The notes under the pieces: generated by a model
What the model was told of the DNA's origin: nothing
Database searches by the model: none
The model's input: the letters and a program-made list of their open reading frames with translations, nothing else
DNA from: Sulfurovum sp.
GTDB taxonomy: Bacteria > Campylobacterota > Campylobacteria > Campylobacterales > Sulfurovaceae
Direction: 5' to 3'
DNA: 49,913 bases
NCBI GenBank assembly: GCA_026989435.1
Contig: JALSJI010000074.1
Location: forward strand, 1 to 49,913
In this document: positions 2 to 8,726 of the stretch, one piece after another
Numbering within the stretch: the first letter of the stretch is position 1
Layout of the letters: every line of letters starts with the position of its first letter
Translations under genes and position numbers: made by a program

Positions 2-739
2 AACGAGCTTAATACCAATGTGGCACTCAACGGTACTGCACTTGAAGTTACCGATGCAGGCGGAACTAAAAGTGTAGATTTAGACGGTACCTTTGCAACG
101 GATACCGAAGTATCTGCGGCCATTGTTGCCAGTGCAGCACTTGACTTGGACAAAGACAGCACAAATGAAATACAAACGCTTACATCCAATGATAATACCG
201 TATCGCTTACCCAAAACGGCAATAATTATGATTTAAGCGTGAATATACCGGCACAGACGATTACTACTATCTCTAACACGATTGCCGGCAACAAGATAGC
301 CGACTATACCAATGAAAGTGGCACAACCGTCACTATTAATGAAACTGTTACATCACTCGCGCAACAAGCCTCCCCAAATCAGCTAGACTATCAATATACG
401 GATGAAAGCGGCACGCAAACTACACTACGATCAAGCCCGATAGTGGCTTTTGGTAAAGTAAGTGAAGCAGGAGCATTACAGCGTGGTTATGGTGCTACTG
501 TAGTCAGAAACAGTGCGGGGAATTATACTGTGACACTAGACACAGCAAGACCAACTGCAAATTATACTATTCAGCTTACTATCCTTGATTCAAACGGTGC
601 AGGCAATGATGATTACGATATTGCTTATAGTAACCAAACTACAGGTACCTTTATAGTACAAACAGGTGACAATGATAACGGTAATAATAACAGAGCCCAA
701 AGAGACAGTGAGTTTATGTTTACAGTGATAGATTACTAG
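2..739 (+). CDS. Surface fibre-like protein, 5' end cut off by window
   Basis: The frame is open from base 2, so the real start lies outside the window; the GTG at 20 is only the first internal candidate. About 245 residues are visible, all low-complexity, rich in Thr, Asn, Asp and Gly. They contain phrases such as DSTNEIQTL, NTVSLTQNG and a C-terminal block (GAGNDDYDIAYSNQTTGTF) typical of tail-fibre-like or adhesin-like surface proteins that I associate mainly with Bacteroidetes. No enzyme motif is visible. It ends 9 bases before the next gene and so is probably first-to-second in an operon of exported proteins. Export is inferred from the neighbours, because the N-terminus is not seen. Confidence 0.7.
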   Translation, partial: NELNTNVALNGTALEVTDAGGTKSVDLDGTFATDTEVSAAIVASAALDLDKDSTNEIQTLTSNDNTVSLTQNGNNYDLSVNIPAQTITTISNTIAGNKIADYTNESGTTVTINETVTSLAQQASPNQLDYQYTDESGTQTTLRSSPIVAFGKVSEAGALQRGYGATVVRNSAGNYTVTLDTARPTANYTIQLTILDSNGAGNDDYDIAYSNQTTGTFIVQTGDNDNGNNNRAQRDSEFMFTVIDY

Positions 740-748
740 GATACAGTG

Positions 749-1243
749 ATGAAAAAATTGATAGTGCTATTACTTACTTTAAATGCTATATCTTTTGCAA
801 TAACTACTAATGAACTAGTGCAAATTCATCAACTCAGCTCAACGCAAAAAAATGCTTTGAATGCACCTGCAGACGGGATGTTGGTTTTTGACACAACAAC
901 AAAAAGACTTTATGTCTTTGCAAATAGTGCATGGAGAGAACTACTCATTACCCCTCAAGTATTAACAAAAACGGCAAGCTACACATTACAAGCAAGTGAC
1001 AACGGCAAGATCATCACATTTAACAGCACTACGGATATAACACTTACTATCCCTTCTGGTTTTCCTGTAGGTTACAATGTATCAGTCTATCAAACAGGCA
1101 CAGGTAAAGTAACTATAGTCGGTAGTGGTACGACAGTTCTAAATAGATTAAATAGATTTAAAACTGCAGGTAAAGATGCAGGTATAGGCATAGTAAGTAC
1201 CTCAACCGACACTTACCATTTAACGGGAGATTTAAAAAAATAA
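749..1243 (+). CDS. Small exported protein with LVF/Y-W module
   Basis: Predicted 164 residues. The start is taken as ATG 749, not GTG 746, because AGGA at 738-741 then has normal spacing. Residues 1-18 form a signal peptide (MKKLIVLLLTLNAISFA). Residues 20-65 carry a module (ELVQIHQL.. then GMLVFDTTTKRLYVF..AWREL) that recurs in the proteins starting at 2168 and 2482. The remainder looks like a small beta-rich domain (SYTLQASDNGKIITFNS). Function is unknown; the module resembles short sequences found in Bacteroidetes surface proteins. It sits 9 bases after the fibre-like gene and 1 base before the next, which supports co-transcription. Confidence 0.7.
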   Translation: MKKLIVLLLTLNAISFAITTNELVQIHQLSSTQKNALNAPADGMLVFDTTTKRLYVFANSAWRELLITPQVLTKTASYTLQASDNGKIITFNSTTDITLTIPSGFPVGYNVSVYQTGTGKVTIVGSGTTVLNRLNRFKTAGKDAGIGIVSTSTDTYHLTGDLKK

Positions 1244-1244
1244 A

Positions 1245-2168
1245 ATGACAATTACAAACTCTTTTATGCGTATATTTATTATTCTTCTATCGCCTCTTGT
1301 GATGCATGGTATAGTTTCAAACTATAATCACTTTCCTACGTATCAACCCTCGCATATACTTGATGAAAAACGTACAAATATCAGCTTTGCTTTTAGTATG
1401 CGTGTATTGGTAAGTGAGTATAACGGTCCACTTATTAGACTCAGACGTGCAAGCGACAATGCCCAACAAGATTTTAGCCGGGGAGACAATGATATAGTAG
1501 ATGTTACAGCTATAAACACATGGAGAAACGGGAGCAATGTGTATGTACATACATGGTATGACCAAAGTGGATTAGGCAGAAATGCCGTGCAGACAAATCC
1601 CACTAGACAACCTCGTTTCTACCCCGATGCAACGATACCCTACTTTCAAGGAGACGGGTCTAACGACCACTTGACAGTAGATACACCTAACGGTATACAA
1701 GATGTGACGAATGCAGGAAAAGAAGGCAGCGTCCTAGCTTTGATGCGCGCAACGAAAAAAAATCAGCATACGTTTGGGGTATTGGACAATACGGCTTCTC
1801 CAAGCAACCGATGGAGTGCTCATCTAAACTGGGGGAATAGTAGGGCATATTTTGACCCGGGACATTGTTGTGTACCAAACAGAAGTTTTTATAATATAAC
1901 CAATGAAAATAAGTGGCGATATTATAGTTTTATAAAAAAAACATCAACTATCATTATGAGAGTAAACGGTATCGACAAATTAAATGGCACACATACAGCT
2001 AGTGCTTGTACTAGAACAGAGGACTTTGCCATAGGATGGGCTACCGGGAATGAAACCGGCAATCACTCTAGTACATCTTTTACCGAGTTTATTATGTATA
2101 AAATCGATATTCCTAGCTCTGAATATCAAGAAATAGAAGACAATGCTATGACATTTTGGGGGCTATAA
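1245..2168 (+). CDS. Exported arabinofuranosidase-B-like / LamG-type lectin protein
   Basis: Predicted 307 residues, with a hydrophobic N-terminus; an alternative start is the ATG at 1266. The core shows the pattern of the GH54 alpha-L-arabinofuranosidase B catalytic/lectin fold: FAFSMRVL, GPLIRLRRASDNAQQDF, VYVHTWYDQSGLGRNA and a late FTEFIMYKIDI strand. YDQSG.G.NA is the most recognisable block. This fold occurs both in glycosidases and as a carbohydrate-binding module, and I cannot tell which applies here. The stop codon overlaps the start of the next gene (ATAATG), so translation is probably coupled within the surface operon. Confidence 0.65.
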   Translation: MTITNSFMRIFIILLSPLVMHGIVSNYNHFPTYQPSHILDEKRTNISFAFSMRVLVSEYNGPLIRLRRASDNAQQDFSRGDNDIVDVTAINTWRNGSNVYVHTWYDQSGLGRNAVQTNPTRQPRFYPDATIPYFQGDGSNDHLTVDTPNGIQDVTNAGKEGSVLALMRATKKNQHTFGVLDNTASPSNRWSAHLNWGNSRAYFDPGHCCVPNRSFYNITNENKWRYYSFIKKTSTIIMRVNGIDKLNGTHTASACTRTEDFAIGWATGNETGNHSSTSFTEFIMYKIDIPSSEYQEIEDNAMTFWGL

Positions 2169-2482
2169 TGAAAAACTTTATAAAGAAATCAACCTTTTTA
2201 CTATTGCCGTTATCTCTACAATTTTCATTTGTCTATGCCGTTACAGCCGATGAATTACTTCAAATTCACAAAGTAACAACCACTGAAATGAATAGCATTA
2301 CTACACCGCAGGCAGGAAGTATTGTGTTTAATACAACAGAAGGTACCTTATATTTTTATACAGGTTCCGTGTGGAAAAGATTGCGTGCAACCGGTTCAGA
2401 AACTGTTATTCAAGCAGGAGACAACATTAATATCTCCGGTAATGGCAGTACTGCTACACCCTATGTGATAGGAGGACAATAA
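2168..2482 (+). CDS. Small exported protein with LVF/Y-W module
   Basis: Predicted 104 residues from ATG 2168, which overlaps the preceding stop codon. Residues 1-22 are a signal peptide ending near FVYA. Then follows the same module as in the 749 and 2482 genes (ELLQIHKVTTTEMNSI, GSIVFNTTEGTLYFYTGSVWKRL) and a short tail (GSETVIQAGDNINISGNG, ending PYVIGG) that is clearly shared with the 2482 protein. The protein is essentially the N-terminal part of its downstream neighbour without the fibrinogen-like domain, which suggests local duplication. Function unknown; probably a structural subunit on the outside of the cell. Confidence 0.7.
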   Translation: MKNFIKKSTFLLLPLSLQFSFVYAVTADELLQIHKVTTTEMNSITTPQAGSIVFNTTEGTLYFYTGSVWKRLRATGSETVIQAGDNINISGNGSTATPYVIGGQ

Positions 2483-3387
2483 TGAGAAATATCTATTTTA
2501 TTTATCTTTTAATTACCTCCTCAACATTTGGTGTTGTGCCGCAAAACGGTGAGCTTATTACTCTTCATCACGTGACTACCGCAGAGATGAATGCCATAGC
2601 TTCACCCAATACCGGTTCACTCGTATTTAACGGTGACGACAATGAAGTCTATGAATATAACGGCACGACATGGAATAACATCTCTAGTGACGGCAGTGAA
2701 ACAAAAATAGTTGCCGACAACTGTATAGAGGTAACAGGCACAGGTACCGCAGCTAACCCCTATATTATAAAAGACAACAATCTAGGAGAGACGAAGTCAA
2801 CAGCTGGTCTTGGCTGCAAACAGATACTGCAAAGCGGGTGTCAAACAAGAGACGGCATCTATTGGATTAACCCGGATGGGGGAAGTACGGATAATGCGTT
2901 TGAAGTCTATTGTGATATGAAAAATGGGGGATGGACTAAAATAGAGTATGCAGAGGATTTAGTCGATAAAAATTATTGGAATACAGGTGATGCGAGAAGA
3001 TGGCTACCAACGAACTTTACTTTAAAGCTCACAGATACACAAATTAATGATATACGTGCCGTATCGACAGAAGGCAAACAGACCTATGTGGGACAATGTG
3101 ATGGTGTGTTGCATTATTACTATAATAGTGGAAGTAGCTATAATTATTCTCTAGGTTTTCGTTTTCATACAGGGGATGAAACAGTTTATGGACAGCAAAA
3201 CTATCCTGGCACAAATATCACTGTGACGCAGGATGGGTGTGCTACCAATAGAACATACGCATTAAACACTATATTTGAGATAAATGATATACGCGTCCCT
3301 ATTGTCAATGTTTCATCTCAAGACAACGGTAATGGCACTGAGACTTTTGGTTCCCCACTTACAAATAACCCGGCATGGCTAAGGTAA
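2482..3387 (+). CDS. Exported fibrinogen-like domain protein
   Basis: Predicted 301 residues; ATG 2482 overlaps the upstream TAA by one base. It has a signal peptide (to about residue 18), then the recurrent module (ELITLHHVTTAEMNAI, GSLVFNGDDNEVYEYNGTTW) and the GSETKI..PYIIKDN tail. From about residue 105 it carries the start of a fibrinogen C-terminal-like fold: CKQILQSGCQTRDGIYWI, then DNAFEVYCDMKNGGWTKI. Fibrinogen-like domains often bind sugars or act as extracellular recognition modules. The rest (to residue 301) contains several Cys that could form disulfides. It is probably the last gene of the tightly packed run; a 65-base gap follows. Confidence 0.7.
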   Translation: MRNIYFIYLLITSSTFGVVPQNGELITLHHVTTAEMNAIASPNTGSLVFNGDDNEVYEYNGTTWNNISSDGSETKIVADNCIEVTGTGTAANPYIIKDNNLGETKSTAGLGCKQILQSGCQTRDGIYWINPDGGSTDNAFEVYCDMKNGGWTKIEYAEDLVDKNYWNTGDARRWLPTNFTLKLTDTQINDIRAVSTEGKQTYVGQCDGVLHYYYNSGSSYNYSLGFRFHTGDETVYGQQNYPGTNITVTQDGCATNRTYALNTIFEINDIRVPIVNVSSQDNGNGTETFGSPLTNNPAWLR

Positions 3388-3452
3388 AGAATGATTTTTG
3401 ACATTTGCATGATACAATACAAAGATATAACGACACTTTTAGGAGATGTACT

Positions 3453-4787
3453 ATGAGAGAGCAGGTTAAAAGCATATTATTCAGTATCATTATACCCTTT
3501 ATCTATCCTCTCTATGCCGATGTCGTCATAGGCAATGGAAACATAGAAAGACTCAACTCCGGTGTCATTAAAGATATTAATTGTCAAGATTATACTATTC
3601 TTTCTGACGGCTTGTTAAGTACCGCTAACGGTGGCGTACTCCGTGAGGTTAAAAAACTTGAGATTAACGGTACATGGGATTTTGGCAGTGGGCAAATCAT
3701 AGAACTTGGTACATGGATCAATAATGGTACGGTAGCTCTCAAGCCGACTCAAACTGCTCCAATACCCAATCTAACGTTTACTGCGCTATGTGGGCCTATA
3801 TCGGTACGCGGTACGTCTGACACCGATGGTGACGGCATATCAGATGCCGATGAAGGAGACAATGCCGTGGCTTTAGGATACGGTATCACACTTGATCAAG
3901 ATAATGACGGTACCTATAATTTCTTAGATGACGATAGTGACGGTGACGGACTTACGGATGCCGTTGAAGGGGGGAATACTATAGACACAGACGGTGACGG
4001 CATACCTGATTATCTAGATGCAGACGACTCTCGTCCAAACAGTGCTGACGACAACTCACTATCAGGAAACGATATAGGTGACACAATCGGTATTGATATC
4101 TTGGCCAACGATACCCTTAATGATGGATCGATAGCCGTAGCTGATGACGTGAATATAACACTCATTGCTCCTACCGGCGGTGTTGTTAACGAAGACGGCT
4201 CAGTAACCGTTGCAGGGGAAGGTACATGGAGATATGATCCTTCTACGGGTATATTAACCTTTACTCCGATAGAAGGGTTTACCGGCAATCCAAAACCAAT
4301 TAGCTACATACTTACAGAGCTTGCTACCGGACTTCAAAGTAGCCCTGCTACGGTTACTGTAAAATATGATGCTGTTGAGCCTGTAATACTCAGTGCAGCA
4401 GACGACGGTACTATTGTCATTACCCATTACGGACCGACACCGCTTAATGTATTGGACAATGACACCTATAGCGGTACCGTACATATAGAGATAGTACACT
4501 CACCTAAAAACGGAACCGTGGAGATTGCCAAAGGCAGCGATGGGATAGATATGATACTCTATGCGCCTGAGCCCAATATCAACAAGGTCAAAGACAGCTT
4601 TATCTATGCTATCATAGATGCCCAAGGAGAGCGTTCTGAAGCCATAGTAAAACTTGATATACAATGTGCCTCTACACAGACGTCTGATGGAGGAGTGCAA
4701 AGCGGGGTAACATTGTTTGTTATGATGCTGCTTAGTATGTTTACGGGACTCTATATCGTAAGAAGAGAAGAGAACAAAAAGGCCTAA
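3453..4787 (+). CDS. Cell-surface protein with TSP3-type calcium repeats and C-terminal anchor
   Basis: Predicted 444 residues. The start is ATG 3453, preceded by AGGAG at 3441-3445; an upstream ATG at 3405 has no such site. Layout: signal peptide (about 1-23, ending PLYA); a beta-rich N-terminal region; thrombospondin-type-3-like Ca-binding repeats at about 120-195 ([42 protein letters not shown]); two cadherin/Ig-like segments with ILANDTL and LNVLDNDTY motifs; and a final hydrophobic helix followed by a basic tail ([13 protein letters not shown]). That ending resembles C-terminal sorting/anchoring signals but I cannot assign a sortase class. Likely an envelope-anchored adhesin or structural protein. 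Confidence 0.75.
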
Positions 4788-4811: not shown

Positions 4812-5360
4812 TTATTTTTTAAGCGGTGTGACGTACATATTGATATATCTGCCCTCTTGAGAGGGTCTACTCTCAAGATTTCCTATATCTTCAAGCATGG
4901 GCCACACACGGTTTAATACGTCAATACCCCATTCAGGATTTGCCATCTCCCTGCCTTTCAAAAAAACCCTTAGCTTTACATGTTTTCCTTTTTCTAAAAA
5001 TTCTCTGGCATGTTTGACTTTATAGTTGATGTCATTTTCGGCAATCTTACAAGAGAACTTAACCTCTTTGACTTCAATCTTTTTTTGATTTTTACGGGCC
5101 TCTTTTTTCTTTTTCTCCAACTCGTATTTATGTTTTCCGTAGTCCATTATTTTTGCAACAGGAGGATTGGCATCCGGGGAAACGAGTACCAAGTCTAGTC
5201 CTCTCTCTTCTGCAATGCCTAATGCTTCAGCTTTGGGGATAATACCTAATTGTTCCCCTGTATCGCTCAAAACCCTTAATTCATGTGCTCTAATAGCATC
5301 ATTCATAATGACATTATCAGCCTTTTTTCTGCCCCTGTTTCTATCATTTTGTCTACTCAA
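4812..5360 (-). CDS. infC: Translation initiation factor IF-3
   Basis: Predicted 182 residues. IF-3 binds the 30S subunit, keeps it apart from 50S and proofreads start-codon selection. The N-terminal domain (about 15-85, [18 protein letters not shown]) and C-terminal domain (about 90-175, [20 protein letters not shown] and LKGREM) are both complete. The start is TTG at 5360, with AAGGAA at 5365-5370 giving good spacing; the first ATG is codon 19 and would cut the conserved N-terminus. The start overlaps the thrS stop by four bases (TTGA), so translation is coupled. rpmI and rplT, which usually follow infC, are absent here. Confidence 0.95.
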
Positions 5361-7171
5361 ATCGTTCCTTCTTGAAGTTGTGTGATTAATTTTACCATAA
5401 ATTCATCCTGTGTGAGATTATACTGCTCTTTGTTGCGTCTGTCTCTTATTGCCACTGTTTTGTTGGCAACCTCTTCCTCTCCGATAATCACTACATAGGG
5501 TACACGCTGTTTTTCTGCTGTACGTATACGCTTGTTAAGTGAATCGTTTTTGTCATACACCTCTGCATCGATACCCTCTTTAAGCAGCATCTTCTTAAGC
5601 ATATGGGCATACTCGGAATGACTCTCGCCAATAGGCACGAAAATGACCTGTGTAGGTGCCAAGAAAAAAGGAAACTCTCCCGCATAGTGTTCCGTAAGTA
5701 TGCCTATAAATCTTTCAAACGAACCCAATATTGCACGGTGAATCATTACCGGTCGTTTACGTATATTGTCTTCAGCGACATACTCTACTTCAAAACGCTG
5801 TGGTAGTTGAAAATCAACCTGTATGGTGCCGCACTGCCATTTACGACCGATAGCATCGGTTATCTTAATATCAATCTTAGGACCGTAAAAGGCTCCGCCT
5901 CCCTCATCGATTGTATAGGGGAGTTGATTACTCTCAAGTGCATCTTTAAGTCCCTGTGTCGCTAGTTCCCATACTTCATCTTCACCGATAGCCTTTTGTG
6001 GTTTGGTAGCAATTTCCATAGTATATTCAAACCCAAAAAGCTTCATCACGGCATCTACAAACTCTACAACCTGTAGCACTTCCGTGGCAATTTGCTCTTG
6101 CGTACAAAAGATATGGGCATCATCTTGTGTAAACTCTCTTACACGCAAAAGCCCATGTAAAACACCTGATTTCTCATGACGGTGCACCACCCCGTACTCA
6201 TAGTAGCGAATAGGCAAATCACGGTAGGACTTTTGTGTCTGCTTAAATACCTGTATATGACCCAAACAGTTCATAGGCTTGATACCGTACTCCTGCTCAT
6301 CAATGCTTGTAAGATACATATTTTCACCGTAACATGCGTAGTGCCCCGAAGTTCTCCAAAGGTCTGCTTTTAAAATTTCGGGACCGCGTACCGGTTCATA
6401 GCCGCGCATCAAGTGTGCCTTATGCAGAATAGACTCTAGTTTATAGCGTAGTTTTGCCCCTTTGGGCATCCAAAAAGGAAGCCCCGCACCTGCCTCCTCA
6501 TTGAACATAAAGAGCTCCATTTGAGCACCAATTTTTCTATGATCGCGTTTTTTCGCTTCTTCAAGCATCGAAAGATGTGCCTTGAGAGACTCTTTGTCGG
6601 CAAATGCCACACCATAAATACGCGTAAGCATCTCTGCTGTCTCGTCTCCGCCCAAATAGGCTCCGGCTACACGTGTAAGTTTAAAATGGTGCAAAAAACG
6701 AAGTGCTGGCACATGAGGACCGCGACAGAGGTCCTCAAAATCACCCTGTTTATAAATAGAGAGCGTGTCGTCTGCAATGCGTTCCATCACTTTTTGCTTA
6801 AGGTCGTCATTGGCAAATTTCTCTAAAGCTTCTGCTTTACTCATCTCATACTTTTCGATTTTGTACTTTTTCTTGATAAGCTCTTTCATCTTTTTTTCAA
6901 TCGTTTTGAGATCATTTTCGCCAATTTGCTCATCTACTCTGAAGTCATAGTAAAATCCTTCATCTACTACCGGTCCTACAAAAAACTGTGCATTGGGATA
7001 CAACTCTGCAATTGCCTGTGCCATGAGATGCGCTGTAGAGTGACGAATGATCTCTAAAGATGCTTCGGAGTTATCATACTCTATTGGAGTAGCAGTGCAG
7101 TTTTCGCCTGCACTCTGCGTATCTATAATATTACCTTGATGGTCAATATAGCCTATAATGTTTTCGCTCAA
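5357..7171 (-). CDS. thrS: Threonyl-tRNA synthetase
   Basis: Predicted 604 residues; class II synthetase that charges tRNA-Thr and edits mischarged Ser-tRNA. The editing domain shows HxxxH (H44, H48) and CxxxH (C149, H153). The catalytic core has the zinc-binding cysteine at C302 (PMNCLGH), motif 2 with FTQDDAHIF, and motif 3 with LGSFERF. The C-terminal anticodon-binding domain is present (VIFVPIG..YVVIIG). It is shorter than the E. coli enzyme (642) because the N-terminal TGS-like region is reduced. The only suitable start is TTG 7171, preceded by AAGGA about six bases upstream. It is followed by infC with a 4-base overlap. Confidence 0.95.
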
Positions 7172-8136: not shown

Positions 8137-8726
8137 CTAAAATCTCCTAAAATCTCCTCTTTTGCCTTTTGGCACTCGTGTATCAAGTGATGCAAATCTT
8201 TACTATTATCTATCACATACCTCGCATGCTTACGTTTATACTCTATGTCTATTTGCGTCTCTATACGCATCAACGCCTCCTTTTTGGAATATCCCCCTCT
8301 TTGCATCAGTCTCTCAATCTGCTTTTGTTTAGGTGTATACACAACCAAAACTCTCTTTATAGGATATCGATTATGCTCAAAAAAAAGAGGAATATCCACA
8401 AAATAGGGTCTTTTATACCGATCCTCTTGGAAGGAAAGATTCTTAATCTCTTCAAAAATGAGAGGATGCAACACCTTCTCAAGAGACTCTCTTTTTTTTG
8501 TATCGCTAAAAATAATTTTTCCAAGCACTTTTCTATCGACTCTTCCCTCTTTTACGCATGCTTTTCCAAAATAGTTTTCAATCACTTCATGCTGTTCGTC
8601 TAATATCCCGTGCGCTATTTTATCTGCATCAATAATTTTAAATCCGTTTACATTAAAAAACTTGGCTACCGTACTTTTCCCCGTTGCGATACTTCCCGTT
8701 AATGCAACTGCATAGTCAAATCCCAT
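8133..8726 (-). CDS. coaE: Dephospho-CoA kinase
   Basis: Predicted 197 residues; phosphorylates dephospho-CoA in the last step of coenzyme A synthesis. The P-loop GSIATGKS is at residues 11-18, followed by the conserved IIDADKIAH. HPLIF and VDIPLFFE are the CoaE-type substrate-domain motifs. Length is normal for the family. It lies 15 bases after the transpeptidase gene and overlaps dapF by four bases, so the three form one operon read on the minus strand. Confidence 0.93.
   Translation of the reverse strand: MGFDYAVALTGSIATGKSTVAKFFNVNGFKIIDADKIAHGILDEQHEVIENYFGKACVKEGRVDRKVLGKIIFSDTKKRESLEKVLHPLIFEEIKNLSFQEDRYKRPYFVDIPLFFEHNRYPIKRVLVVYTPKQKQIERLMQRGGYSKKEALMRIETQIDIEYKRKHARYVIDNSKDLHHLIHECQKAKEEILGDFR

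Follow-up and report, generated by a model that had tools for sequence, protein, structure and literature searches.

A Sulfurovum operon of exported proteins with phage-fibre-type modules carries a bacterial homologue of the procollagen C-propeptide domain

COLFI, the procollagen C-propeptide-type domain, has been called metazoan-specific (PMC4224354) and has been traced to choanoflagellates (PMC5120351), and in the Plasmodium LAPs a region has been described in which COLFI and fibrinogen-type (FBG) domains overlap (PMC11285972). In the open-licence literature we came upon no account of a full-length COLFI domain in bacteria, although Pfam or InterPro entries may already include some. Here we analyse a stretch of DNA of 49,913 nucleotides (the window), which is contig C74 of a Sulfurovum-type metagenome-assembled genome (MAG) and begins with a run of six co-directional genes, numbered 1 to 6, for exported proteins. 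Gene 5 of this operon ends in a C-terminal domain (its tip) that, judged by sequence and predicted structure, is a homologue of the full-length COLFI domain, a statement that does not extend to covalent linkage of a trimer.

A Pfam scan assigned residues 104-290 of gene 5 to COLFI (PF01410, 9.3e-20, 71.4 bits against a cut-off of 26.2, covering positions 25-225 of the 233 in the model) and gave no listing of Fibrinogen_C (PF00147) for this protein. A search with the single gene 5 sequence found human COL3A1 in both halves, and a profile made from a 14-row bacterial alignment matched COL3A1 over the full length (hmmsearch, 9.8e-14), whereas the same profile matched FBG entries over the first ~50-120 positions only. 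When an AlphaFold model predicted from this alignment (pLDDT 92.9, pTM 0.88) was compared with the PDB by Foldseek, human procollagen C-propeptides took all of the first 17 places (E about 1e-13, with 4e-14 among the values; TM-score 0.82-0.86). On superposition with a human C-propeptide, 187 of 192 residues aligned with a root-mean-square deviation of 2.2 A and a structural Z of 21.6, as against a Z of about 5 for fibrinogen domains. Four cysteines (gene 5 residues 112, 144, 206 and 253) are invariant across all rows of the 14-row bacterial alignment and have counterparts in COL3A1. They line up with C1, C4, C6 and C7 in the numbering used for procollagen C-propeptides, where C1-C4 and C6-C7 are intrachain disulfides; the C5-C8 pair is not conserved in the bacterial family.

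The gene 5 tip thus resembles the C-propeptides of human COL1A1 and COL3A1 (5k31 and 4ae2) in its full-length sequence match, its predicted fold and its four cysteines, and differs from procollagen in being joined to a phage-type N-terminal module and in lacking the triple helix and the inter-chain cysteines; its bacterial family conserves none of C2, C3, C5 and C8. There is no Gly-X-Y triple-helix repeat in gene 5, so the protein is not a collagen. A previous reading of this DNA, made without database searches (the sequence-only reading), had called the domain fibrinogen-like. We rejected that plain description on the profile and structural scores given above: the likeness to fibrinogen-related domains (FBG, ficolin, angiopoietin; NF040941 GGGWT) is limited to the first ~45-70 residues (YCDM..GGW) and the rest differs. 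The other domain calls of that reading hold. A fold search among viral structures found no relative.

Outside Sulfurovum, we found 12 full-length COLFI copies in 10 of 188 sampled Myxococcota genomes, with 35-54% identity over the domain; Pfam COLFI matches in this phylum mostly cover the GGGW start alone (model positions 23-70), and these were left out of the count. The Myxococcota copies form the C-terminal end of secreted proteins (L113-L118, L153-L159) that have the same four cysteines and the same ...FGSxLxxxPAxLR end as gene 5, but in the two that were read the domain follows MopE-like calcium repeats in a long single protein, whereas gene 5 belongs to an operon of small subunits. Transfer of the domain from an animal host to a bacterium is not favoured, the Myxococcota relatives being closer (35-54%) than the human domain (~22%). 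In the COLFI tree the human branch is very long, the tree is mostly unresolved, and it gives no direction of descent between animals and bacteria. A possible, if doubtful, view is that full-length COLFI is a bacterial family, of Myxococcota and Sulfurovum, that would trimerise or cap exported fibre subunits, and that the animal domain descends from it or shares an older origin with it. A full-length bacterial COLFI family with a matching predicted fold reopens the question of where the trimerisation domain of fibrillar collagens came from, and in the small bacterial versions trimerisation is directly testable. Separately, one Myxococcota MAG (G457, the genome of L014) holds 77 GGGWT (NF040941) matches, a very large expansion.

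The COLFI tip is carried on an N-terminal module (E-L..H..TT.EMN.I..P..GSLVFNTT...LY.Y.GT.W) that genes 2, 4 and 5 have in common, on which gene 2 bears a beta domain also seen in phage minor tail proteins and gene 4 bears no tip. The operon was found in two further Sulfurovum MAGs. On one contig of G727 the order is mutS, a divergent outer membrane protein (OMP) barrel gene, gene 1 (complete, 911 aa), genes 2, 3 and 4, an extra gene-5-like gene, genes 5 and 6, infC and thrS; a close relative, G018 (JALSPX01, Sulfurovum sp.), has the order 1-4-5-6 without genes 2 and 3, and different downstream neighbours. The G727 orthologues of genes 2 and 3 are 66% and 67% identical to ours, and gene 4 has orthologues in both genomes. 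Tips are exchanged between genomes: the extra G727 copy joins a gene-5-like N-terminus to a GGGW tip with another C-terminus, and G018 has swapped the C-terminal half of its gene 6. In the G727 assembly the frame of the COLFI (gene 5) orthologue (L173 7859-8796) is disrupted near 8290, and the neighbouring gene-5-like copy with the other tip (L173 6948-7862) is intact; MAG contigs may carry errors.

Genes 1-4 are made of modules that also occur in phage tail proteins, here combined with Sec signal peptides. Gene 1 has a PHROG tail fibre match (8.5e-9), and part of it matches the tail fibres of Cellulophaga phages, a link to phages of Bacteroidetes; gene 2 matches phrog_21978 (4.9e-17); and gene 3 matches phrog_10356, a virion structural family (9.6e-16), and proteins of Gordonia, Arthrobacter and S-CBS4 phages. 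When viral contigs were searched, the N-terminal module gave short matches only, in phage virion genes, and neither the gene 1 knob nor gene 3 nor the COLFI domain gave any. The N-terminal part of gene 1 had no match in phages, genes 1-3 had no significant match among PDB sequences, and plasmid searches gave no match. A similar arrangement is seen in the T4-like cyanophage S-TIM4, in which ORF36-41 comprise a fibre gene and, behind it, a back-to-back series of genes for an NGxxW module plus a GGGW domain, as in the operon; the phage cassette differs in having no signal peptides and in C-terminal halves that are not COLFI. Within that cassette, ORF37-40 (L067 4587-7639), which are annotated as unknown and stand in tandem behind the fibre gene, probably encode receptor-binding tips.

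On balance, we think the operon probably encodes a modular, Sec-exported surface fibre or adhesin that is built of phage-tail-fibre-type parts and has exchangeable tips. This reading draws on the conserved gene order in G727 (1-2-3-4-5-6 plus the extra copy) and G018, on the N-terminus common to genes 2, 4 and 5, on the different tip of the extra G727 copy and the swapped half of gene 6 in G018, on the use of the same modules by phage virion proteins and the similar row in S-TIM4, on the COLFI evidence, and on the purifying selection and the anchor-like tail of gene 6 described below. Gene 1 would supply a long stalk of repeats that ends in a C-terminal knob; the small subunits would be the products of genes 2, 4 and 5, docking through their common N-terminal adaptor to gene 1 or to one another; gene 3 would be a lectin-type subunit with a ConA-like fold; and gene 6, a calcium-repeat protein, would reach the surface through its membrane-anchor or sorting tail. 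The COLFI tip of gene 5 is probably trimeric, as in procollagen, and may cap or assemble a trimeric subunit, and tip proteins are likely swapped to vary the binding target. We infer that the operon most likely functions in attachment, whether the target is a surface, a host or a glycan. If so, the operon would be a clear case in the Campylobacterota of phage-fibre-type modules that serve as exported, exchangeable surface tips.

Some observations weigh against this fibre or adhesin. The resemblances to phage proteins amount to 25-50% identity over single modules, and the bacterial family does not conserve the inter-chain cysteines C2 and C3, which bears on trimerisation. Genes 1-5 show no visible outer-membrane anchor and no secretion signal beyond Sec, and, since there is also no linked usher or secretion gene, their products could stay in the periplasm. 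The sequence-only reading had suggested looking upstream for an usher or secretion gene; what we found there is a divergent small OMP barrel gene alone, with no usher or dedicated secretion gene.

Because the domain matches are to tail and virion proteins, the genes could instead be the remnant of a prophage or of a phage-tail-like particle, that is, genes for virion tail fibres that have persisted in the chromosome. We consider this very improbable. Wherever a start is visible it begins a signal peptide, which the phage homologues that were read do not have. Neither flank (mutS-like, OMP barrel and rpmI/rplT on one side, infC and thrS on the other) contains genes for a head, a baseplate, an integrase or lysis. 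Purifying selection acts on the genes, which are syntenic in another genome, and gene 6 is of a kind typical for bacterial surface proteins. That the genes are real is indicated by ratios of nonsynonymous to synonymous substitution (dN/dS) of about 0.05-0.21 against the G727 and G018 orthologues, with high dS.

A further alternative is that the products are independent periplasmic or secreted lectins or hydrolases for polysaccharide use that are merely co-transcribed. Gene 3 matches the arabinofuranosidase model PF09206 (4.6e-7), the fold of gene 5 is distantly related to lectins, and joint assembly of the operon products is itself an inference. However, gene 3 covers the first third of PF09206 only, domain scans found no other enzyme domain in the operon, and the module common to genes 2, 4 and 5, together with the tipless gene 4, suggests a common dock. 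We regard independent enzymes or lectins as rather improbable, and a jointly assembled fibre as the better account.

The chromosomal site of the operon, where it is readable in other Sulfurovum genomes, is mostly empty. The start of gene 1 is missing from the window and is found on contig C13, which supplies the signal peptide, a VGIGTTTPNE motif and DADTDPANE-type repeats; when the operon's own genome was searched, window bases 1-109 proved to lie on C13 as well, within a repeat, the first 105 being identical. Beyond its part of gene 1, C13 carries a divergent OMP barrel gene (PF13505, 1.9e-13), a mutS-like gene, rpmI and rplT, while the window continues past gene 6 into infC and thrS (5357-7171). 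In many Sulfurovum genomes (L045, L048, L050, L052, L053, L060, L061, L063 and L064) infC, a mutS-like gene on the opposite strand, rpmI and rplT occur with an empty gap between infC and mutS, from which we predicted the junction of C13 with C74 and an insertion of the operon between infC and mutS. The predicted arrangement is seen intact on the single G727 contig.

Carriers are few. The three Sulfurovum MAGs named here are the only ones found; a search of 60 relatives with gene 5 gave one carrier and a weak partial match, neither the N-terminal module of genes 2, 4 and 5 nor gene 3 occurs in any of 297 other near-complete Campylobacteria, the gene 1 knob is present in 3 of 150 family genomes (our own included), and among 397 genomes COLFI is above the cut-off in our own alone. 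Gene 6 departs from this patchiness: its C-terminal half occurs widely in the Sulfurovaceae, with a match in 58 of the 150 family genomes. Genes 1-5 have no conserved counterpart in the Campylobacteria; conservation throughout the Campylobacterota, which the sequence-only reading named as grounds against its own proposal, does not hold for them.

That proposal, a Bacteroidetes-derived surface operon acquired horizontally for attachment or glycan binding, has in its favour the patchy presence, the absence of the modules from about 300 other Campylobacteria, the Cellulophaga phage match of gene 1, and the contrast of occupied and empty sites. Against it, the nearest gene 5 relatives found, in genomes that did not include Bacteroidota, are in the Myxococcota, gene 6 has a native module as its C-terminal half, and the operon is old rather than recent. 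Recent transfer finds no support in GC content, which is normal (0.406 vs 0.394), and the operon genes have diverged in step with host genes; ordinary GC, low dN/dS and high dS together indicate that the operon is not recent in the lineage and is under purifying selection. We think a horizontally acquired, Bacteroidetes-derived operon unlikely.

The tail of gene 6 is conserved in the nine family proteins compared (window 4665-4784, with the others among L164 and L166-L172) and has the layout of a MYXO-CTERM tail, a type sorted by myxosortase (PMC11980579): a short signature motif with an invariant cysteine, then a transmembrane segment, then a charged end. The motif is not identical, the gene 6 tail having C-x-S-x-Q-x-SD and an Arg/Lys-Glu-Glu end. 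We propose C-x-S-x-Q-x-SD followed by a transmembrane segment and G(L/F)YxxR(R/K)EE, as found on Sulfurovaceae surface proteins, as a candidate Campylobacterota sorting signal.

The gene layout (Table 1) agrees with the six genes, the spacings and the signal peptides at visible starts given in the sequence-only reading, and signals and gene order bear out its exported, co-directional operon of surface-type proteins. Gene 2 starts with ATG 9 bases from gene 1 (a GTG lies at 746), gene 3 starts 1 base past gene 2, gene 4 overlaps gene 3 and gene 5 overlaps gene 4 by 1 base each, and gene 6 starts 65 bases past gene 5; each of genes 2-6 has a Sec-type signal at its N-terminus, as judged by eye.

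Table 1. Features of the operon and its 3' landmark (window coordinates unless a contig is named)
Feature	Position	Strand	Remark
Gene 1, 3' part: DSTNEIQTL-type repeat stalk and C-terminal knob (about 413-736)	2..739	+	open at left end
Gene 1, 5' part: signal peptide and VGIGT motif	contig C13:1073..3	-	
Gene 2: signal, N-terminal 'GxLVFxTTxxxLYVY...W' module, phage-minor-tail-type C-terminal beta domain	749..1243	+	
Gene 3: signal, ArabFuran-catal-type (ConA-like) lectin or hydrolase-like domain	1245..2168	+	
Gene 4: signal and N-terminal module only, without tip	2168..2482	+	
Gene 5: signal, N-terminal module common to genes 2/4, COLFI tip	2482..3387	+	
COLFI (procollagen C-propeptide-type) domain of gene 5	2809..3384	+	PF01410, structure model
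Gene 6: signal, TSP3-like DxDGD repeats, CshA-type/Big_9 domains, C-terminal anchor	3453..4787	+	
Gene 6 tail: C-x-S-x-Q-x-SD, hydrophobic stretch, G(L/F)YxxR(R/K)EE	4665..4784	+	
infC, 3' landmark of insertion site	4812..5360	-	convergent

The interval between infC and mutS may be a hot spot for cargo, as two loci (L058 and L049) hold different cargo there; in L058 (667-2348) it is a pair made up of an AAA-ATPase gene and a second gene ('GENNIGKTALLEAL', 'LLVEGITDVNLVRYIY') that looks to be of the OLD/DUF4435 type. The MutS-family gene itself (L004, on C13, 1822-4761, opposite strand) encodes a Cys/His-rich, HNH-like C-terminus and splits infC-rpmI-rplT in many Sulfurovum genomes.

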